This document shows, in pieces, positions 31,950-42,323 of a DNA stretch of 64,000 nt. The notes beneath the pieces are model-generated. The model saw nothing but the letters and a program-made list of their open reading frames with translations, was not told the origin of the DNA and made no database searches. The stretch comes from a bacterium (GTDB lineage Bacteria; Patescibacteriota; Microgenomatia; UBA1406; GWC2-37-13). Every line of letters begins with the position of its first letter. The first letter of the stretch is position 1. The DNA is taken from assembly GCA_021833625.1 (NCBI GenBank), contig JAKBEU010000001.1, forward strand, positions 310,001 to 374,000. The letters run 5' to 3'. Made by a program: the position numbers and the translations under genes.

Positions 31950-32813
31950 TTATTGCATGTAGCTCGGGAGCGTGGGAGCCGGAGTTGCTGTAGGACCGGT
32001 TGTCGGTGTGGGAGTCGGAGAAGCGGTGGGACTAGGAGTTAGGGGGTTCCATGTGGGTGTTGGAGTAGGAGCAAGGGTGGGCGTAATGGAAAAACAAGAG
32101 CCGAGAGTCACCTTTCCGACACACCCTGATTTCATCCAATCAAGCGTGCTGCATGTCATTCCTATTTTTTGGCATATTTTAAGACAGTCCGTTTCACCGC
32201 AGACAAATGAAGTGAGAGTCGGAACCGCGTAAGGCGTTGCTGTGGCATAGGGCGCCAGTGTTGGGGTGGGAGTCAAAACAACCGTCATACGTTGAGTCGG
32301 AATGGCTCCTTGTGTCGGGGCAACTGTCGGGCTGACAATGGCTGCAGAAGGAGTTGCTATGGGAGTGGTTGCGGGACCGGTTGGGGTAATTCCCACTTTT
32401 GATTTGGTGGTAAATGTCCATGGGACTCCCCCATTATCGTATTTTGTATCTCCTATGCGGATCTGAAAATAATAAGAAGTGTTTCCGGTCAACAAAGTTA
32501 ATTCGACGGTGTGCGATTTATTTTTTGCTCCTTCTGGCGCAAATAAATTAAGCGAAGTCGGAGAAGATCCGTACTCGATTATTCCCTGTGTTTCCTGATC
32601 TGTTGTCCACGATACTTTTGCTCCATTTTCAGTCAGCCCATTAATGACGATGTCACGCGGGGCGGAGTCGGAGGCCCGTGTAAACACTCCCTGCACAAGC
32701 AAAAATCCTCCGGCAAGTACCAAAAGCCCTACGACAACACCCATCACTATGGTAAGGGTCTTTTTGCCCTTCAACGCACTCAGTTGGGGAAATTTTATTT
32801 CGGGCAATTTCAT
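31950..32813 (-). CDS. Membrane-anchored fibronectin-III-like surface protein with Thr/Pro tail
   Basis: A 287-aa protein with an N-terminal cytosolic stretch, a TM anchor (about 20-42), a fibronectin-III/purple-acid-phosphatase-like beta domain (about 55-140; VSWTTDQETQGIIEYG), a Thr/Pro-rich linker, a small Cys-rich motif with six Cys (about 203-245), and a second Thr/Pro-rich tail that may be a cell-wall spanner. The last gene of the cohesin-dockerin cluster, 3 nt after the upstream gene's stop. Confidence 0.83.
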   Translation of the reverse strand: MKLPEIKFPQLSALKGKKTLTIVMGVVVGLLVLAGGFLLVQGVFTRASDSAPRDIVINGLTENGAKVSWTTDQETQGIIEYGSSPTSLNLFAPEGAKNKSHTVELTLLTGNTSYYFQIRIGDTKYDNGGVPWTFTTKSKVGITPTGPATTPIATPSAAIVSPTVAPTQGAIPTQRMTVVLTPTPTLAPYATATPYAVPTLTSFVCGETDCLKICQKIGMTCSTLDWMKSGCVGKVTLGSCFSITPTLAPTPTPTWNPLTPSPTASPTPTPTTGPTATPAPTLPSYMQ

Positions 32814-32816
32814 ATA

Positions 32817-33503
32817 TTAAAGTATCATCAACTGTAATATAACACCGACAACGAGCAAGAATGCACCCATTCCCGCAATTTTTGGAAACTGGTCCATGAT
32901 ACCGGTTTGAGGAAGTGCGGTTGGTTGAACTGACGACTGATAAGGTGAGGTTATCGCGGCGGTTGGAACAGTTGTTGGGACAACGGGGCCTCCCGTCCCA
33001 ATGGTTACGACGGAGGTTCCGTTTTGGGTACAGACAATGATATTTGTTGGGTCAATCGCATTTTTTATTACCTTTGACGAATTGCTTGCGTCGGTACGAC
33101 AATCATACGCGAGTGTTGCCGTCCCGTCCTTCAGTGCTTTAAAAGTGATAACCGCAACGGTTCCGGACCCGGTTTTATAGCTGCCAGGGTCGGTGATAAG
33201 TCCGGCAACATAGGTCTTTCCCGCCGAGATATTACTCGTTACTGCGGGAAAAAAAGCAGCGGGAGAGGCTGTTTGCGCCTCAATAAGTGTCGGATCATAC
33301 GTAATCCACATATCCGTTGAAGTAATCTGATCGCTTTGCGCATCAACTATTGCCTGAAGCTGAAATGTTTGTCCGACACTCACCGATACTGTTGATTGAT
33401 CAAATTTAAGGAGTGCCGCTTGTGCCGAAGAAGAGAGGAAAAAAAGATAAATAGGCACACAAAAAAAGATACCAACAAGAAAATTACGCAGCGTATTCAT
33501 CAT
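32817..33503 (-). CDS. Cohesin-domain protein with LPQTG-type C-terminal signal
   Basis: A 228-aa secreted protein: signal peptide (about 1-29), cohesin domain (about 30-170; VSVSVGQTFQLQAIVDAQS, MWITYDPTLIEAQ and VAVITFKAL patterns), a Pro/Thr linker, then LPQTG (about 198-202) and a hydrophobic stretch to the last residue. The motif fits a sortase signal, but the basic tail is missing and no sortase gene was seen. It may act as the surface anchor to which dockerin proteins of the cluster bind. Confidence 0.85.
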   Translation of the reverse strand: MMNTLRNFLVGIFFCVPIYLFFLSSSAQAALLKFDQSTVSVSVGQTFQLQAIVDAQSDQITSTDMWITYDPTLIEAQTASPAAFFPAVTSNISAGKTYVAGLITDPGSYKTGSGTVAVITFKALKDGTATLAYDCRTDASNSSKVIKNAIDPTNIIVCTQNGTSVVTIGTGGPVVPTTVPTAAITSPYQSSVQPTALPQTGIMDQFPKIAGMGAFLLVVGVILQLMIL

Positions 33504-33523
33504 ATTTCATTATTCATTATTCT

Positions 33524-34123
33524 TTATTGAATTTCAAGCACAAGGTCTTTGTAGTTGGGATATGTCGCCTGAGCCGTATCATCAACATATTTCGAACTTT
33601 CCTGGCCTAAAGGTTTAAGGGAGAAAGTAAACCTCCCCTTTTTCTTAGGAAGAAAAGTAAAGGAAAGGATGGGCGTTTCTTCAAACTGCGTTATTTGCGT
33701 GGATTGCAGCTGCTTTGTTGCGGAAATGGACACTCTGTTTTCCCTGTCGAACGTAAAAATGCGGAAAGTCGTGTCCCCGTTCTGTACCGCTTGCCTCTCA
33801 AAGGCGGTTTTGTCATAGGTCATAACAACATCATATCCTGCAATTTTACTGTTCCCCGATGTTGCAACGAGCTGAATGACAAAAGGCTTCCCGACGGGCA
33901 CTGAGGTTGCTTTTTTCTCTTCTTTCAACTCCATTATTCCATTTATCGGATGAGGCAAACGGGTCGGAATAACAGTCGGTTCCGCTTTACGTTGCGCCCT
34001 TGCGTTCTCAGTTCCTTCTCCTTTTTTTGAATTAATAACCAGGTATCCGACGATACTCCCTCCCAGTAGGAGAAGTGCAAGGACGATGAGCATTATTTTG
34101 GTGTATTTTGTGTGCGTTTCCAT
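33524..34123 (-). CDS. Membrane-anchored cohesin-like protein
   Basis: A 199-aa protein with one N-terminal TM (about 10-30), a Lys/Arg/Glu-rich linker and a beta-sandwich domain (about 75-199) that has the cohesin pattern: IAGYDVVMTYDKTAFER, then VSISATKQLQ and PILSFTFLPKKKGRFTFSL. Its ATG at 34123 comes 1 nt after the upstream stop (TAATATG), so translation is likely coupled. The domain is more divergent than in the 228- and 402-aa proteins. Confidence 0.78.
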   Translation of the reverse strand: METHTKYTKIMLIVLALLLLGGSIVGYLVINSKKGEGTENARAQRKAEPTVIPTRLPHPINGIMELKEEKKATSVPVGKPFVIQLVATSGNSKIAGYDVVMTYDKTAFERQAVQNGDTTFRIFTFDRENRVSISATKQLQSTQITQFEETPILSFTFLPKKKGRFTFSLKPLGQESSKYVDDTAQATYPNYKDLVLEIQ

Positions 34124-34124
34124 A

Positions 34125-35891
34125 TTATTCTTCATCATATTTTATTGATAACGCCTGTAGTACTATTGAATAGTCCTGAGTATCAATGATATTGTCAAGA
34201 TTAAGATCTCCTATTGCGAGTTTGCTTGCATCGGTTGAGCCTAGATTCTGGCGAATAAATGTCGTATCGTACGAATCGATTATCCCGTTTTGTTTCCCAT
34301 TTGTTTCCGGCAAGTCTCCGCTTAACATCACTATTCTCGAGAAGTCGAGCGTATTTGTTCCTGATTTTAATGTAATATTTCCGTCAGCACAATGATATGC
34401 TCCCGCTTTTGATTCGGTCGGTGCACTGTCACACACTTTCTTTTGCAGTTGTTTCGGACCTTTGACGTATACCCTATATCCGCCGCCGTTTGCGATATTG
34501 TTAAATGTTGCCTGGCCCGACCAGACGCCTGAGTCGTCAACCGTGAACGAAACTGTTTGATATGCGGTTGCAGACGTAAGACCTCCTCCGCCTAACTTCA
34601 CCTGTACTTTGAGCGGAGTGCTGTTTGCCGGTTTTTTTGTGATACCTTGTATCTTTATTTTTAAGGCAAGTGTTGCTGACCCTGAGCTGCCGGGAACTGA
34701 CGTTGGACCCACGACCGGATTAGTAACTCCAGGCACCGGTACATTGGGATTCGTGTTTCCCGAGGAGGTCATAAGTGATCCATAATAGTATCCAACTCTG
34801 TTGTCCCCTTCTCCCCACGCAACCGGCTGGGAGGTGTTTATTGAACCCTGGACTATACCGCTAAAGTCTCCATTTTGTACGAGTTCTTTTCCACTAGCAT
34901 TTTTCATCGACACATAATCAAAAAAGGCCTCAGACCCGCGGTCAACGCTTAAACGTAAAAGATAATGACGGTCATCTCCTGTCCCAGAAAGCGTAATGGG
35001 TTGATTTGTTTTTTCCACATAGTCTTTTGATTCGGGGAAAGCAAGACTATAGATAGTTGCATTTTGCTTTGTGCTGTTTGCACACGTGTCCGAATTACAC
35101 ACGAGTGTCACCCTCACTCCTTTTCCTTGAGATACTCCCGTAAGCACGCGAGCAGAGAGAGTATATTTGCCAAAAGGAAGGATTAATTCCTGGTCATAAT
35201 TCACGTCCGTTCCCAGAACCGTCATGTTTCCTGTTGCGTTTGAAGCTGCACAACAGTCATCAGACGTACCTGTCGACAGTTGGCATTTCGTATCATCATA
35301 ATAGCCCGCGTTTGGACTCGCAGAACAAACAAAAATGTTATCCGTCCCCTCATATCTACTGTATCGACATCCCGTCAAACCGGCACCAACTACTTTCAAA
35401 CAATCAAGACGTTTTCCGTAGTTACACTTCACTGTCACTTCGTCATATGGGCGGAGTGTCGAAGGAGCCACAGAAGCAGAGACAAATGTCTGTGCTTTAC
35501 ATTCATTATTGTTGTTATTGTTATTGTTGTTATTGTTATTGTTGTTATTGTTGTTATTGTTATTGTTATTATTGTTATTATCCCCACAAGTACAATCTTG
35601 CGTCTGAGCATCGCAAGTCTTCCCTGCCTGAGAACATGTACATGTACGAGTTTGCTGACATTTCGATCCGGTTGAGGCACACGCACTCCAAGCACCATAC
35701 GTTGGGGTACAGGTGCTACTATTTTGAACGCAACAATGAGCCTGACACGCCCAGCCAACTCCACCATTGCCACAATCGCTTGCTTGGCTACATTCATATA
35801 CTCCATTATCAATCATGCAAGCAGCACCTACGGTTCCCACAAAAAGGAGAATCGTATAAATCAAACTAAAATATATAAATAGTTTCTTCAT
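34125..35891 (-). CDS. Secreted modular protein with poly-Asn tract and C-terminal dockerin
   Basis: A 588-aa protein in the order: signal peptide (about 1-23), a Cys-rich region (about 24-103), 25 consecutive Asn (about 105-129), a galactose-binding-like beta domain with paired Cys (about 230-360) that is also present in the 402-aa protein, an Ig-like X-module (about 405-500) and a type-I dockerin. The dockerin has two calcium loops (NGKQNGIIDSYD and DLNLDNIIDTQD, about 527-576). This is a candidate ligand for the cohesins of the cluster. Its start overlaps the end of the upstream gene by 4 nt. Confidence 0.87.
   Translation of the reverse strand: MKKLFIYFSLIYTILLFVGTVGAACMIDNGVYECSQASDCGNGGVGWACQAHCCVQNSSTCTPTYGAWSACASTGSKCQQTRTCTCSQAGKTCDAQTQDCTCGDNNNNNNNNNNNNNNNNNNNNNNNNNECKAQTFVSASVAPSTLRPYDEVTVKCNYGKRLDCLKVVGAGLTGCRYSRYEGTDNIFVCSASPNAGYYDDTKCQLSTGTSDDCCAASNATGNMTVLGTDVNYDQELILPFGKYTLSARVLTGVSQGKGVRVTLVCNSDTCANSTKQNATIYSLAFPESKDYVEKTNQPITLSGTGDDRHYLLRLSVDRGSEAFFDYVSMKNASGKELVQNGDFSGIVQGSINTSQPVAWGEGDNRVGYYYGSLMTSSGNTNPNVPVPGVTNPVVGPTSVPGSSGSATLALKIKIQGITKKPANSTPLKVQVKLGGGGLTSATAYQTVSFTVDDSGVWSGQATFNNIANGGGYRVYVKGPKQLQKKVCDSAPTESKAGAYHCADGNITLKSGTNTLDFSRIVMLSGDLPETNGKQNGIIDSYDTTFIRQNLGSTDASKLAIGDLNLDNIIDTQDYSIVLQALSIKYDEE
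35505..35579 (-). repeat. Trinucleotide repeat coding for 25 Asn
   Basis: Twenty-five consecutive AAC/AAT codons (GTT/ATT on the plus strand) in irregular order. The mixed codons make it a partly degenerate microsatellite. A change in repeat number would alter the linker length without breaking the frame. Confidence 0.95.
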
Positions 35892-37096
35892 TTCGTTGGA
35901 TTGTTGATTATTAACGCCCCATGTACCCCTGCCGCCGGATCAACTGTCCCAAATAAATTTGCAGTTCCATCTACAATCCAAGATGTCGGTTGTTTTCGCG
36001 GATCAGTATAAGACTGTGAATCCGCAAATTGAGAATTCACTATTCTGTCGCTTCCCCATGCATCTTCAAGTGTTATATAGTCAATCTCACATTCCGTCCC
36101 GTCTTCGCAATAAATACGCACCGTGTATTTTTTTCTATCACCTTCCTGTGGAATGACAACGTTTGTCTGCATTTCGCTGAAATCTGCCTTTACGGGAAAG
36201 ACGGGTGTTCGTGCGATGATGTCGTTGCGTTTTTTTCCTCCTCCGCAATCACTTTCATTGCAATGTATCGCAATAACCATTCCTCTTCCTTTGTTGTAAT
36301 ACACTTTTGCACCGACAATAAGATTGTAAGTTCCCTTGTCAAGAACGACATTTTGTTCGTAGCGGAACGGTGCGGGATTTGCAATAATCGAATTGATATA
36401 CAGTCTGTCTCCCCGGGGTAATATTTCTGTCGTCGTACCGATTTGGTCCTGATTTCCCGTAATTTGAGGAGCAGGACTTGCGCCGACGGTGGGAACAGGT
36501 GTTCCGTTCCCTCCTGCGCCCGTCGGGACCGTCACGGGAGTTGCGCCTGACGGAACGGGAACTGTCGGGGTAATGCCGGTATAGGCAAGATCTTCCTTAC
36601 TTATTGCACTCTGCCCTGCGATATTTGTTGTTGAGTCCCAATTAAACTGCAACGGAAGCGCCGTTTCCGGTTTCATGACAAATGCGATTTTCGCAAGCTG
36701 AACCGGCTCTCCCCCTGCAAATGGAGTTACAGTACGCGTTCCCTTTATCGTAACGACATGGGTCAGAATATCAACTGCGGGCTCACTGATGACCGCACTG
36801 TCCAACATCGTCACATTTGAGATGGGGTTTGCCTCATCAACAAAATTCACTTTTGTCGGATCATAGGTAAACTTCAAATCAAAGGAGTAAAAAGGAGAGC
36901 TGTTAGGATTGATATTCACATAAAGGTCAAAATTACTACCCGCTTCAACTTTTGCGCCGGGAACCGTAAAAAAAAGACGCGGAGGCGCAGCAGTTGCCTT
37001 TGATTTTTGCTTATATTGTTGGAACCACCACACACCAAACCCGACAGAAAGAAAAAACACCACCAATACCGCCAGTATTCGTATTTGAAATTTCAT
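35888..37096 (-). CDS. Membrane-anchored cohesin protein with galactose-binding-like C-terminus
   Basis: A 402-aa protein: N-terminal TM anchor (about 8-26), cohesin domain (about 38-160; FDLKFTYDPTKVNFVD, then TIKGTRTVTPF and KIAFVMK), Pro/Thr/Val linker (about 175-215), and a domain (about 228-345) with YINSIIANP, CNESDC and a late DYITLEDAW, homologous to that of the 588-aa protein. It overlaps the downstream gene by 4 nt and follows the upstream gene by 2 nt. Confidence 0.85.
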   Translation of the reverse strand: MKFQIRILAVLVVFFLSVGFGVWWFQQYKQKSKATAAPPRLFFTVPGAKVEAGSNFDLYVNINPNSSPFYSFDLKFTYDPTKVNFVDEANPISNVTMLDSAVISEPAVDILTHVVTIKGTRTVTPFAGGEPVQLAKIAFVMKPETALPLQFNWDSTTNIAGQSAISKEDLAYTGITPTVPVPSGATPVTVPTGAGGNGTPVPTVGASPAPQITGNQDQIGTTTEILPRGDRLYINSIIANPAPFRYEQNVVLDKGTYNLIVGAKVYYNKGRGMVIAIHCNESDCGGGKKRNDIIARTPVFPVKADFSEMQTNVVIPQEGDRKKYTVRIYCEDGTECEIDYITLEDAWGSDRIVNSQFADSQSYTDPRKQPTSWIVDGTANLFGTVDPAAGVHGALIINNPTK

Positions 37097-37098
37097 AA

Positions 37099-38544
37099 CT
37101 AATCCCCTTTTTGTCCAAAATTTTTTCCGACAATCCCTATATCAACTGTATCACTTATTCCGTCAAAGTTCATGTCTCCCTGATCGGTTTTTTGGCTTAC
37201 TGCAATACTTACTGCACTCAAGTCTTTTTTATCAATAATATTGTATCCCTCGCTTTGCGTATCAAACCCATTCGTATCACCTGAATACATCGGTCTTCTG
37301 TCAATTTCTGACAACAGCTGTCCGCAGGCAGAGTCAAACCCTATAGAACAGTTGAGCAACTTATTTTTTTGCATATAAACGAATTTATAGGAACGACTTA
37401 CGGTGATTGCTTGTTTTACAACCACTGTGTAAGGAAGGGTCTGTTCGAGTCTGAAACTCAGCTGTGGAGAGACAAAGTAGTTTCCGACTCGCGTAAAGCT
37501 CACCATCTGGGAACATCCGGGACACGCGAGTGCGCTGCCATTCATTATATCCACCTTTACGTTTCTGATAGCCTGTACACTGCTTGCCGCATCCGGGAAG
37601 TTGAGTTTCAAAATGATATCCGCGGTGTTGACGGGTTGAATTGTTCCTTGAGTCGGGGAAGGAATTGTGTTGTCGCACTTACTGCACGCACAGTCCATCG
37701 TGGGAAGCGTTGTTGATTGTGAGCCACAGGCCGCGTTATATGCAATAACCTTGTAAGCATGTTTATCCAGATCTCCGCACCAGGCATACGTATATGCGGT
37801 CTGATTTTTCCCCAATATCGCAATCGGAATTGTCTGGGTGTCCTTATAAATTCTATATCCGTCTTCATTTGTTACATCCTTCCACTTGAGAATAACGTTT
37901 GTACCGCATTGTGAATCGCACGTTAGACCCTGAGGAATCTCCGCGCGACAATCAGGAGTCGGGGTTGGAGTAAGAGGGTTGGAATCAACGACAAAATCAA
38001 GAGGGTTCGTAGCTCCTGCAAGAGTAAACACGTTCTCCGGAATGTTTGGGCCTGAAACTTGGGACGATGTGAGGTTGATCCGCAATGTCGAAAGATACGA
38101 TGTCCCCCTATTTGTCACCTTAAAAGTAAGAGGAATAATGACTGACGATGTGGGGAGTTGAGCCTCAGTTTTTTTGGATACGAATATGAGTCTCTTTAAT
38201 CTTTTTGTCTGGTCCACTCTGGTTGTTGTGACATCGCTGTCTGCCAATACTTGCTCATCAAACCCGGTAGGGAGTGTTGCGCTTACAAAATCAAGATTAT
38301 CATCCCCTATATTTTCAAATGAGAGATCAATCCCTGACATATGCAGTGTTCCTGTCGAAACAGTAACACCCACATTCACCGTTCCGCCAGGTTGCACGGA
38401 AGCTCTTGTGACGGTATACGATATATTAGCAATGGCCTCTGACGCTTTTGAACTTGCCTTGTAGTTGTTTAAGTAATACCAAGCCCCTATAACTGAAGCG
38501 ATTGCTATCGCTCCAAAAAAGGCCACCCGTAAAATCGTTTTCAT
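37099..38544 (-). CDS. Membrane-anchored cohesin-FN3-X-module-dockerin protein
   Basis: A 481-aa protein: TM anchor (about 4-22), cohesin-like domain (about 35-180; GTVNVGVTVSTGTLHMSGIDLSF is the opening strand pair, shown in part), a fibronectin-III-like domain (about 200-285) with several Cys, an X-module-like domain (about 310-420), then a dockerin (about 425-481) whose second loop DMNFDGISDTVD is canonical. It has both a cohesin and a dockerin, so it could act as a scaffold. The start at 38544 comes 1 nt after the upstream stop (TAATATG). Confidence 0.84.
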   Translation of the reverse strand: MKTILRVAFFGAIAIASVIGAWYYLNNYKASSKASEAIANISYTVTRASVQPGGTVNVGVTVSTGTLHMSGIDLSFENIGDDNLDFVSATLPTGFDEQVLADSDVTTTRVDQTKRLKRLIFVSKKTEAQLPTSSVIIPLTFKVTNRGTSYLSTLRINLTSSQVSGPNIPENVFTLAGATNPLDFVVDSNPLTPTPTPDCRAEIPQGLTCDSQCGTNVILKWKDVTNEDGYRIYKDTQTIPIAILGKNQTAYTYAWCGDLDKHAYKVIAYNAACGSQSTTLPTMDCACSKCDNTIPSPTQGTIQPVNTADIILKLNFPDAASSVQAIRNVKVDIMNGSALACPGCSQMVSFTRVGNYFVSPQLSFRLEQTLPYTVVVKQAITVSRSYKFVYMQKNKLLNCSIGFDSACGQLLSEIDRRPMYSGDTNGFDTQSEGYNIIDKKDLSAVSIAVSQKTDQGDMNFDGISDTVDIGIVGKNFGQKGD

Positions 38545-38545
38545 A

Positions 38546-38893
38546 TTAGTTAAAACGCGTAAGACGCCATATTTCAAAATCTTTAAGATTCACGAGCGTG
38601 TCATTGTTGAAATCGGCAGAACAGTATGTACAGGTACTTGTTGCACCTCTTATCTTTGACAGCCAAAAATTGTAGTCAAGGTCATTTATCACGCCATTAC
38701 AATCCGCATCCCCATCCGGACGACGAGAACAGTTTGGGGTCGGGGTCGGGGTTATGGTGGGAATAGGAGTGCTTGAAGGACAGATATTGTATTCTCCACA
38801 GATTGCATGTACTGGAAATTTTTGAGAAACAGGTAGTAGGAAATAAACAACTATAGCTAACAATAAAAAATGCCAAAAAGATAATCTTTTCAT
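38546..38893 (-). CDS. Small secreted dockerin protein
   Basis: A 115-aa protein: signal peptide (about 1-20), a Thr/Pro linker (about 32-50), and a dockerin (about 54-112) with two canonical loops, DADCNGVINDLD and DFNNDTLVNLKD. Apart from the linker it is nearly only a dockerin, so it may be a cap or adaptor. The start at 38893 is preferred over 38950 because the latter would overlap the upstream gene and break the signal peptide. A TAGTAT-like box lies just upstream. Confidence 0.85.
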   Translation of the reverse strand: MKRLSFWHFLLLAIVVYFLLPVSQKFPVHAICGEYNICPSSTPIPTITPTPTPNCSRRPDGDADCNGVINDLDYNFWLSKIRGATSTCTYCSADFNNDTLVNLKDFEIWRLTRFN

Positions 38894-38946
38894 GGATACT
38901 AATACTATAGATAAACGTAGGCCTGTTTGCAAGCAGAAAACGACAC

Positions 38947-39243
38947 TCAAATCACCTTCAAAAGACGGAAGAGCGCGAACGAAATAAAATAGAACAAAAT
39001 GAGTTGAAAAAGAGGAAGATAGAGAGACAAGAAAATCGTTACCAACGCAAGGATAAAGAAAGATTCGTTGTGAATTGCAGGAAGTAGACCTTTTGTAATA
39101 AGCATGAGAATAACAAGAAGAAGTAACACGCGTGGATTAAACCAGTAGAGTGGCCAACTGAAATATGATGCAAGCCCAATTAAAATAGCGGCCAGAATGA
39201 GAAAAATCTCCTTTGTGTCAAAATAAAATGGACCGAGGTACAT
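38947..39243 (-). CDS. Small polytopic membrane protein
   Basis: A 98-aa protein with about four TM segments and very few charged residues. No family was recognised. It lies within the surface-protein cluster, 53 nt after the 143-aa gene. Confidence 0.7.
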   Translation of the reverse strand: MYLGPFYFDTKEIFLILAAILIGLASYFSWPLYWFNPRVLLLLVILMLITKGLLPAIHNESFFILALVTIFLSLYLPLFQLILFYFISFALFRLLKVI

Positions 39244-39295
39244 AGATTTATACTACTGAAACAAAAAATAAAATACAAGACCCTATTTTACCTAT

Positions 39296-39727
39296 TTACA
39301 ACACCCCATCCGGAGGCGGCTTTTGCCCCTCAGGAATCTTAATGACAACCACACTTCCGTCAAGTCTTGTGTATGTGTGGTTTATCCATTTAATATTATT
39401 TACATCGTACACCGTTTCAGCTACCCCATCTTTTTCATGTGCCGCAACTCCCGAGGCAATTTGCGAAAAGGGAACGTTCTTTAGAGCATCATATCTTTCT
39501 GCGACAGTCTGCTTGTCCACATTACTTGACGTTTTTCCCTGCAGTTTTGCAATTAACTCAGCTACCGGAGTAACAACGGAACGTACTCTCATTGCCAAAT
39601 AAAGATCAAGATGCGGACGGACGACGTACGTACTCTCAATAAAAATCTCTTTCGACAAAAAGCGACTTATGCCAAGAGAAAATGACATTAATAAGGCAAT
39701 GATTAAATATCTTTTGAGTTTTTCCAT
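39296..39727 (-). CDS. Membrane-anchored small protein of unknown function
   Basis: A 143-aa protein with an N-terminal TM (about 6-22), then a soluble helical region (about 45-100) and a beta-like end (NHTYTRLDGSVVVIKIPEG). No family recognised. It follows the Cys-rich gene by 7 nt and is probably co-transcribed. Confidence 0.72.
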   Translation of the reverse strand: MEKLKRYLIIALLMSFSLGISRFLSKEIFIESTYVVRPHLDLYLAMRVRSVVTPVAELIAKLQGKTSSNVDKQTVAERYDALKNVPFSQIASGVAAHEKDGVAETVYDVNNIKWINHTYTRLDGSVVVIKIPEGQKPPPDGVL

Positions 39728-39734
39728 ATGATTG

Positions 39735-41981
39735 TTAATTCCTTGGATTTATTCCATCAACTGTTAATCCATACCCGCCTTGTTTTGGGAGATTGTCCGC
39801 ATTAATGTTAATTGTGATATCAGACTGATATAGATGGTTAGAAATGTCGAAAACGTATCCCACAGCCCACTGATAGCTGTCCTTCGGCGTAAATTTAAAA
39901 GTTTTCACATAGACACCTTGAGAATTGAGTTCATCCTTCGAAATTTGCTGACAAACATCATTTTTTGGATTATTGGTAAGACAGATTGCGCCATTACTGA
40001 GAAAATTTTTAACCGATTCATAGTTCTTTATTGTTAAAGATACACTAAACGATACGGATGCATCGGCATTTGGTTCACAATATGCATCTTGCCTCGCTGA
40101 ATTAACAGAAGTTACATCTCCAACAGTTCCATCAAATGAACCACCGCTACCGTCCATTTTACGCATCCAAGGAGCATACCCACACATCCAGGGAGAAAAC
40201 GGTTGACAATATGTGGTGTATTTCCCCTTCCCTGCCCAGCCGGACAGGTTGGTACAATCAAATGTCGTCACCACAGCGCCTTGTGTTGGATTACAGTTGA
40301 CAATTTTTTGTGTGTAGTTATCCACGCACGCTGTTTTTCCAAGATTGCGATCATAACATGTAGGAGTACTACTATCAGAATCACACAATTGCTGTTTATC
40401 TGTGCACGATATCGATGTTCCTGTTCCCCCTGCCGCCGGACAACTGTAAACGATATTGTTTTTGCATATTGCTTTTCCCGTGCTAACAACTGTCCCTCCG
40501 CCAAAATCACATTGAGTCGCTTCTCCCGTTCCGGCTTTACATCCACAATCCGTTTTTAATTCATCAAGAGTTTTATTATTACAATTATTTCCGTTTTTCA
40601 CCCAATATTTGAGGTTTCCGTCCGTAGTATTTCCTGAAATATAGTATCCATTTGAATTCCCGCCTATACACCCTTCCAATCCTGTACACGACTTGGAGTC
40701 TGTAGTACATGCAGACGTTGCGGGAGCCTCTCCTAAGCAATAATTATTTGCCACTTCTGTCCATGTCGATTGTTTACAGTTTGAGGAATCTGAAATACTA
40801 TAGCATTTATCTCCCGTGCAGTTTTTTGATTTGTAGTAAGAAAATTTATTATCTCCTTGGTAATGTGAATTGCCAGCTCCACAATTGGCATCATTTTTTT
40901 CACAGTCCGAAGCCGCAGGGGTGCTGCCATAACAGCATATTTTTGAAGAATCTCCACAGGAAAGAACGCTGCTATAAGTATAGTTATTGTTCTTACATTT
41001 ATCCAAATTTGTATTTCCCGTTGATGAAGAAGGAATACACCCGTAGGTTGTTCCTGTACAATAATTTGTTGTATCAACTTTTTTGAGACAACACCTTTTG
41101 TTTGCGGCCGAATCGCAGATTTTTGACGGACTTACAAGGGAATCTCCGGTATTACAACTCCCTCCTGCTCCTCCGCAATACTCGGTTGGCGAATCGCAGA
41201 CGGCATCCGCCCCCGTTCCCAAACACACCGATATGTTTTCCGTACCGTTTGCCGGTTTATTTCCGCTTTTTATGCACAGGCCTTTGCTTGCATCACAACA
41301 CTTATGTGCTCCGTTTGCACAGGTTTTTACGCTCCACGGTTGATCGCAATACACGACATCTCCCGTGCAACTGCTGTCATTCTCAAAACAATTGTAGCTG
41401 AGCCACTGCCCTCCGTGCTGACATTGAACACACCTCTTCCCTTGATAACAAGAACCAAACTGATAGTTGTCTCCTCCGGACCCGCATCCTCCCCCTTTAT
41501 CCACTCCCCAATTTAAGGGGTTACTCAATGGAACCGGTGTTACATTTGCTCCGCCTGTTTCCTTACAATAATCCGTAAGAGTCTTTGTGATGACTGTGCT
41601 ACATCCTGCATCAGAATAATTGGTAGATGAACTTGTTGTCTTTTGATAATATTTTTTTGTAGTATTTCCGCTGCATGATAATTGTTTGCAACCGGGATCA
41701 TTAAGACATCCAACGCTGACCGGGCTGTTTGACGCCCATGTCCACTCGGGATGCGCCGGATTTTTCCCCTTATCGCAACACTTATATCCATAATATACCG
41801 TTCCTACGGGAACACATAAGGTCCCTCCTCCACTACACTCATTCGCAGCACACCCCGACGCCCTTGAACTGGTTGTTTGTTTTTTATTGAGATTGAGCGA
41901 AGAAACAAGAGCAGTAACACCGAACATCACTAGCGCCGCAACTGTAAGAATGGTGGCGATTTCACCTCGTCTGCTTTTCAT
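39735..41981 (-). CDS. Membrane-anchored Cys-rich surface protein
   Basis: A 748-aa protein with an N-terminal TM anchor (about 9-30) and about 60 Cys (8%). The Cys are arranged in repeated modules that contain CC pairs (YKCCD, HKCCDA, KRCCLK, KICCYG) about 50-120 residues apart. These should form disulfide knots outside the membrane. The last about 100 residues have few Cys and a beta-rich pattern. Ser/Thr/Gly-rich, no catalytic motif seen. The first gene of the cluster; a TATATT box lies 10 nt upstream of its ATG. Confidence 0.83.
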   Translation of the reverse strand: MKSRRGEIATILTVAALVMFGVTALVSSLNLNKKQTTSSRASGCAANECSGGGTLCVPVGTVYYGYKCCDKGKNPAHPEWTWASNSPVSVGCLNDPGCKQLSCSGNTTKKYYQKTTSSSTNYSDAGCSTVITKTLTDYCKETGGANVTPVPLSNPLNWGVDKGGGCGSGGDNYQFGSCYQGKRCVQCQHGGQWLSYNCFENDSSCTGDVVYCDQPWSVKTCANGAHKCCDASKGLCIKSGNKPANGTENISVCLGTGADAVCDSPTEYCGGAGGSCNTGDSLVSPSKICDSAANKRCCLKKVDTTNYCTGTTYGCIPSSSTGNTNLDKCKNNNYTYSSVLSCGDSSKICCYGSTPAASDCEKNDANCGAGNSHYQGDNKFSYYKSKNCTGDKCYSISDSSNCKQSTWTEVANNYCLGEAPATSACTTDSKSCTGLEGCIGGNSNGYYISGNTTDGNLKYWVKNGNNCNNKTLDELKTDCGCKAGTGEATQCDFGGGTVVSTGKAICKNNIVYSCPAAGGTGTSISCTDKQQLCDSDSSTPTCYDRNLGKTACVDNYTQKIVNCNPTQGAVVTTFDCTNLSGWAGKGKYTTYCQPFSPWMCGYAPWMRKMDGSGGSFDGTVGDVTSVNSARQDAYCEPNADASVSFSVSLTIKNYESVKNFLSNGAICLTNNPKNDVCQQISKDELNSQGVYVKTFKFTPKDSYQWAVGYVFDISNHLYQSDITININADNLPKQGGYGLTVDGINPRN

Positions 41982-42065: not shown

Positions 42066-42094
42066 TTGACAACCTCAAAGTAGGTCTATATAAT
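42066..42094 (+). promoter_or_regulatory. Perfect consensus promoter (TTGACA-17-TATAAT)
   Basis: TTGACA at 42066-42071, a spacer of 17 nt and TATAAT at 42089-42094, ending 7 nt before the ATG of the HTH gene. It would drive a leaderless transcript. Confidence 0.9.
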
Positions 42095-42101
42095 TCGTTC
42101 C

Positions 42102-42323
42102 ATGTCATACAAAACCAAAACACTTCCAAAGGTATCACTTGCAGATCTTCCTGACCTAATCACCATCCGAGAAGTTGCATCCCTTCTTCGCGTTTCATCT
42201 CTTACCATAAAACGATGGGGAAAAAAAGGAAAGCTTCCCGCAATCCGCATCAACTCCCGTGGAGACAGACGCTACAAAAAATCAGTCGTCCTCAAACTTC
42301 TTGGCGAGGTTACGGAAGAGTAA
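42102..42323 (+). CDS. MerR/excisionase-type helix-turn-helix DNA-binding protein
   Basis: A 73-aa protein with a MerR-like winged HTH at about residues 20-65: LITIREVASLLRVSSLTIKR, then GKLPAIRINSRGDRRYKKS. Proteins of this size act as excisionases or local regulators. It has the strongest promoter in the window and sits 15 nt before the 832-aa gene, so it may control the large-protein locus or the divergent surface cluster (inference). Confidence 0.88.
   Translation: MSYKTKTLPKVSLADLPDLITIREVASLLRVSSLTIKRWGKKGKLPAIRINSRGDRRYKKSVVLKLLGEVTEE

Follow-up and report, generated by a model that had tools for sequence, protein, structure and literature searches.

Organisation of the gene cluster

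The locus we have investigated lies at 31950-41981 of the window (the whole stretch of DNA that was analysed, 64,000 nucleotides in length) and consists of ten open reading frames, all on the minus strand, which overlap or almost touch one another and so bear out the co-directional cluster that a preliminary description had proposed. The host genome, from an uncultured ultra-small bacterium of Roizmanbacteria type, amounts to 1.10 Mb in 3 contigs, and the MAGs that share the cluster belong chiefly to Candidatus Roizmanbacteria, with some labelled Microgenomates or Patescibacteria. The genes, referred to here as P1 to P10, and their domains are as follows.

P1, 31950-32813, minus strand: N-terminal transmembrane (TM) segment, FN3-like domain and a tail rich in Pro and Thr; closes the conserved core
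P2, 32817-33503, minus strand: signal peptide, cohesin (32994-33416), LPQTG (32901-32915) and C-terminal TM segment
P3, 33524-34138, minus strand: N-terminal TM segment and cohesin (33527-33931)
P4, 34125-35891, minus strand: secreted, with a Cys-rich N-terminal part and an Asn tract
P4 domains, minus strand: Ig-like (35208-35501), CBM-like (34893-35207), X module (34326-34679), type II-like dockerin (34128-34322)
P5, 35888-37096, minus strand: N-terminal TM segment, cohesin (36572-36985) and CBM-like domain (35891-36412)
P6, 37099-38577, minus strand: N-terminal TM segment, cohesin (37975-38442) and FN3-like region (37684-37965)
P6 C-terminal part, minus strand: X module (37303-37626) and dockerin (37102-37290)
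P7, 38546-38950, minus strand: short, secreted or anchored, with a C-terminal dockerin (38549-38713)
P8, 38947-39243, minus strand: hydrophobic membrane protein of 98 aa
P9, 39296-39727, minus strand: small protein with an N-terminal TM segment; neighbour
P10, 39735-41981, minus strand: Cys-rich protein of 748 aa (60 Cys) with an N-terminal TM segment; possible member

From the reading frames, the likelier start of P7 is an internal ATG at about 38893 and that of P6 an internal ATG at about 38544. The assignment of all ten genes to one system needs qualification at P8, which has matches in 55 of the 83 genomes of the order, mostly at 52-89% identity over the full length, and which is also present in genomes lacking a P5 match. 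Because of this wide distribution P8 was set aside; it probably adjoins the docking system without belonging to it. Genes 22-35% identical to P9 adjoin P8 in relatives. P10 is a possible member of the docking system, and in one related locus (L061:2627-4648) a protein with the same N-terminus ends in a dockerin.

With regard to the layout of the window as a whole, no separate cohesin gene and dockerin gene share one continuous frame; a promoter scan gave a count of promoter-like sites not clearly above that of shuffled sequences, and a terminator scan gave more terminator-like sites than shuffles, many of them inside genes.

Cohesins and their proposed anchors

The preliminary count of four cohesins (P2, P3, P5 and P6) and three dockerins (P4, P6 and P7) is upheld by Pfam, by comparison of profiles with the PDB and by fold comparison. 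The curated cut-off of the Pfam cohesin family PF00963 is 24.1 bits, which is passed by P2 (31.4 bits) and P5 (28.7 bits), while P3 (20.1 bits) and P6 (16.8 bits) fall below it. The P3 profile is weak against the PDB (E 0.035) and matches that of the P2 orthologues when profile is compared with profile in hhalign (97%, 8e-11). The best PDB matches of the P2 cohesin profile are the type II cohesins of Acetivibrio cellulolyticus ScaB (3l8q, 1.2e-6; 4u3s_A, 3.9e-5). The structure of 4u3s_A was solved in complex with the X-dockerin 4u3s_B, and profiles from this cluster match both chains. Fold comparison, which among the cohesins covers the P6 model, places residues 46-201 of P6 with solved cohesins of the beta-sandwich fold (Z about 10-13.5).

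Each cohesin protein of the window carries a single cohesin, and there is no multi-cohesin protein among them. A Pfam search of the genome gave one further cohesin gene, at about 128 kb of contig C3, with LPQTG before a hydrophobic stretch. The CBM-like domain of P5 is homologous to that of P4, as judged by a BLAST match between them.

The orthologues of P2 keep the motif LP[QKR][TSA]G with a hydrophobic segment after it, and in an alignment of 24 of them the L, P and G do not vary. Three sortase genes are present in the genome. Against the NCBIfam model for LPXTG anchors, TIGR01167, P2 scores 12.8 for a cut-off of 15.9, and its tail has no clear basic end. We propose that P2 may be a sortase-type surface anchor and that P3 may be a membrane anchor held through its N-terminal TM segment. 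Signal peptides and TM segments were assigned by eye, and we infer the surface location.

Dockerins and X modules

Of 68 dockerin proteins from relatives, 52 give a match to the Pfam dockerin family PF00404. The family has a cut-off of 22.9 bits; all of the window dockerins are below it and only P7 gives a Pfam line at all (12.7 bits). Since Pfam alone is thus too insensitive for the window dockerins, family profiles were built from alignments of relatives. The P7-type profile matches PDB dockerins at up to 2.2e-13, and at the same location in another locus (L057) there are dockerin genes, 38% identical to P7, which do exceed the Pfam cut-off.

Absent from the preliminary description is that P4 and P6 both end in a dyad of an X module and a dockerin (X-Doc). 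Compared with the PDB, the X-Doc family profile of P4 matches 5lxv (4.5e-6), the X-Doc of 5k39 (4e-5) and 4wi0 and 4u3s (about 1e-3), and that of P6 matches 5k39 (9.4e-5) and 4wi0 (1.3e-4). The two are mutually homologous (97.5% in a profile comparison).

Predicted structures point the same way. The P6 model was made with AlphaFold2 from a six-row alignment, with pLDDT mostly 70-90 for the X-Doc and mostly 60-80 for the cohesin, and its residues 318-492 match type II X-dockerins (Z about 12). Its top rows are the cohesin-X-dockerin chains of CipA (4fl4_C and 3kcp_A), for which the whole-chain rmsd is very large, so that it is the modules and their order that are alike and not the spatial arrangement. 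The P4 prediction, from a 23-row alignment, gives residues 405-588 as matching type II X-dockerins (Z 12.7-13.9), residues 131-228 as Ig-like (InvE, InvD and intimin; Z 7.8-9.9) and residues 228-333 as a CBM-like sandwich at Z 7.9, which is under the reliable level. At a guess, from this model, the CBM-like domain of P4 might bind glycans.

The dockerins had been described as keeping the calcium-loop pattern D-x-N-x-D-G-x-I. This is correct for the second loops of P4 and P6, which are canonical and, like the X modules, strongly conserved, but not for their first loops, which carry an insertion. In P4 the first loop, GDLPETNGKQNGIIDSYD, carries its insertion as does the first loop of 5k39, GDVERKGVQDNAINMVD, in a profile alignment, and because of this match the P4 loop looks like the type II form and not like a defect. 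Outside the cluster, the sole other clear dockerin of the genome is in a 112-aa membrane protein at about 275 kb of contig C2.

Conservation of the core

The order X-dockerin protein, TM-cohesin, LPxTG-cohesin and FN3 protein holds throughout Roizmanbacteria, and the core is found again in other families of Microgenomatia, over much of the class. We collected 39 X-Doc loci from named genomes; as these were chosen by their X-Doc, it is the remaining genes that carry evidential weight. A P2 orthologue is present in 29 of the 39, with several of the remainder stopping at a contig edge. In the 29 P2-bearing loci a P3-type cohesin usually precedes P2, and an FN3 protein follows it directly in 26. 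P1 itself matches Pfam PF16656 at 31.3 bits and fn3 at 18.8. With P5 as query, 11 of the 60 genomes searched in the family gave relatives, with the adjoining genes in the same order. Moreover, the P5-type cohesin and the X-Doc of P4 form one polypeptide in several related loci (L031, L032, L034 and L036), a fusion which argues that the P4 and P5 genes are functionally linked.

Across the class, the X-Doc profile is matched in 162 of 373 genomes and the P2 profile in 266 of 350, although some of the latter matches span the cohesin part alone. Outside the order, 41 of the 60 X-Doc genomes listed have a P2-type gene that lies on the same strand, downstream at a median gap of 656 bp, or about one P3-sized gene. 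Twelve full regions from outside the order mostly read X-Doc, small TM gene, cohesin with LPxTG and FN3, the P3 profile recognising the small TM gene in just a part of them, and several of these regions adjoin genes which by eye resemble dnaX, ybaB and recR. In the wider phylum, single cohesin matches occur in 112 of 287 genomes, mostly without the full length of P2.

Cargo of the dockerins and alternative explanations

In relatives the anchors are constant while the cargo varies. Among 68 dockerin proteins of relatives, Pfam identifies M4 peptidases (4), S8 subtilases (2), cohesins (11), beta-helix (2), CARDB (2), LamG (1) and RHS (1) domains, and tandem cohesins occur in relatives as well. 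The scan of the whole set listed at least 25 families; members outside the individual scans were rescanned, and the rescan gave only 6 families. The absence of any carbohydrate-active enzyme, as reported earlier for the cluster, is confirmed by Pfam, which finds no glycosidase in it. The more general claim that no enzyme is visible holds for the host genome, to the extent that it has no M4_C or S8 match at E ≤ 0.001, but not for relatives, where four loci have a dockerin-tagged M4 protease of thermolysin type and two a dockerin-tagged subtilase. In one of these (L059) a gene for an M4 protease with an X-Doc occupies the slot of P4, directly before the P3-type cohesin.

One alternative is that the system is mainly a protein-degrading platform, on which secreted proteases are mounted to supply amino acids for uptake, and of which the host genome would be a derived case without protease cargo. 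The same dockerins are indeed found on M4 and S8 proteases, and HExxH is kept in all four of the dockerin-tagged M4 proteins. However, M4_C occurs in just 8 of the 83 genomes of the order and in none of the host's genus, and most of the dockerin proteins in relatives have no hit to an enzyme family. We therefore regard this alternative as unlikely. For the host genome, where the cargo consists of Ig-like, CBM-like and FN3 domains, a structural role or one in adhesion appears the better guess, since there is no M4_C or S8 match there.

It could also be argued that the modules are degenerate or repurposed, no longer bind one another and act as mere spacers in cell-surface proteins, as might be read from the several window domains below Pfam cut-offs and from the unusual first calcium loops. 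We consider this decidedly unlikely, given that both partner types stay adjacent in conserved order across the class, that the second calcium loops and the X modules show such strong conservation, and that the anchors persist as cargo changes. Very unlikely is a cellulosome-like complex acting on polysaccharides, whose sugar-cleaving enzymes would have diverged beyond recognition: its X-dockerin and type II cohesin parts resemble those of cellulosomes, some proteins have CBM-like, LamG or beta-helix domains, and a remark in PMC9123182, on related Shapirobacterales, would favour it, but there are 0 glycoside hydrolase families in the 68 dockerin proteins of relatives or in the window cluster, and the lack of any dockerin-bearing glycosidase in these sets led to its rejection.

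A proposed mechanism

We consider it probable, although by no means certain, that the cluster encodes a calcium-dependent cohesin-dockerin surface assembly without cellulases, which has two anchors and whose cargo would be adhesive here and proteolytic in some relatives. A non-cellulosomal surface assembly had been suggested previously, and the Pfam results and the folds of P4 and P6 support it. Dockerin-cohesin binding, its pairing and the biological role are what we infer from these parts. Specifically, the assembly could operate as follows: 1) P2 would be linked to the cell surface by sortase via its LPxTG motif, showing one cohesin; 2) P3, as a second anchor held by its N-terminal TM segment, would show another; 3) the X-dockerin ends of P4 and P6 would dock into cohesins in a calcium-dependent manner, in pairings that we can only presume; 4) the cohesins of P5 and P6 would allow the assembly to branch or chain, and P7 could cap or cross-link it; and, 5) the cargo would face outward, where the Ig-like, CBM-like and FN3 domains found here would most likely serve adhesion to glycans or to another cell, and the M4 or S8 cargo of some relatives would bring about local proteolysis.

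Beyond this locus, we tentatively suggest, at somewhat less than even confidence, that Microgenomatia inherited a dedicated platform, made up of two anchored cohesin kinds and X-dockerin cargo, that mounts swappable adhesins, lectins and proteases, possibly for host-cell contact. Such a platform would bear on how ultra-small Patescibacteria attach to other cells and exploit them, and a modular chassis conserved in much of a class offers concrete protein pairs for measurement. If the platform reading is true, a cellulosome chassis would be serving a lifestyle unrelated to cellulose. There is also a caution here, in that cohesin and dockerin genes in such genomes should not be taken as evidence of cellulose use.

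Comparison with known systems

Cohesins and dockerins outside cellulosomes have been described in other lineages. ANME archaea have non-cellulosomal dockerin and cohesin proteins with varied cargo and a suggested role in the extracellular space (PMC9012536); their cargo is mainly transporter binding proteins and S-layer proteins, and no conserved X-Doc, twin anchor and FN3 cassette is described there. Candidatus Stygibacter, of the Cloacimonadota, has a dockerin-tagged S8 peptidase among its cargo, but differs in its large scaffoldin, which is 3,755 aa long and bears CBMs as well as tandem cohesins, in the presence of glycosidases and in CTD attachment (PMC8542988). A cohesin-dockerin system outside cellulosomes is also reported from Omnitrophota (PMC10066038). 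Closer to the present host, Shapirobacterales, of the same Microgenomates group, have expressed cohesin and dockerin genes interpreted as a cellulosome (PMC9123182), and Southlakia epibionticum has essential dockerin and FN3 proteins (PMC10633639). Both are of the same phylum and resemble our case in having dockerin and FN3 proteins at the cell envelope; the two mentions are single sentences, which describe neither a cassette nor an X module and set out no logic of anchors or cargo. For Roizmanbacteria, we found no description of cohesins or dockerins in the open-licence literature, and one may exist elsewhere. The parts are thus of a known kind, and it is the conserved cassette with interchangeable cargo that appears to be undescribed in the open-licence literature searched.

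The nearest known systems are the cellulosomal type II cohesin-X-dockerin pairs of Clostridium thermocellum (CipA) and Acetivibrio cellulolyticus (ScaA/ScaB). Unlike these, the present system has no cellulase or glycosidase that we could find and no multi-cohesin scaffoldin in the genome, its proposed anchors are LPxTG-TM and TM proteins, and its host is of the Microgenomates type. The likeness lies in the X module joined to a dockerin, in the insertion in the first calcium loop of P4, in the best-matching cohesin type and in P6, which, like the C-terminus of CipA, has a cohesin and then an X-dockerin on one chain. This suggests that the cohesin-X-dockerin design may be a general tool for surface assembly and not a speciality of cellulose degraders.

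Cohesin and dockerin genes outside the cluster

Two further genes of this kind lie elsewhere in the same genome:

L039:9756-10403 (contig C3, about 128 kb), second LPQTG cohesin gene, outside the cluster
L040:9151-9489 (contig C2, about 275 kb), stand-alone dockerin protein, 112 aa

In the cohesin protein a hydrophobic segment and a basic tail follow the LPQTG motif. The 112-aa protein, which consists of one transmembrane segment and one dockerin, carries the clearest Pfam dockerin of the genome.

Features within and beside the cluster

42066-42094 (+), promoter-like site, perfect TTGACA-17-TATAAT
39735-41981 (-), P10, with 60 cysteines
38947-39243 (-), P8, 98-aa hydrophobic membrane protein

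The promoter-like site, found by promoter scan, points away from the cluster (divergent) and lies immediately upstream of a small ORF at 42102. In P4, the secreted X-module-dockerin protein, 25 asparagines form an unbroken run (window 35496-35582, (-)) whose coding DNA is a short tandem repeat with imperfections, and by alignment the tract differs in length or place among relatives. With identities reaching 89%, P8 is conserved far better than the surrounding surface genes, and it has homologues in 55 of the 83 genomes of the order. The same N-terminus as that of P10 is joined to a C-terminal dockerin at L061:2627-4648, in a relative, and this N-terminus (RRGEIATILTVAALV...) recalls a prepilin-type start.
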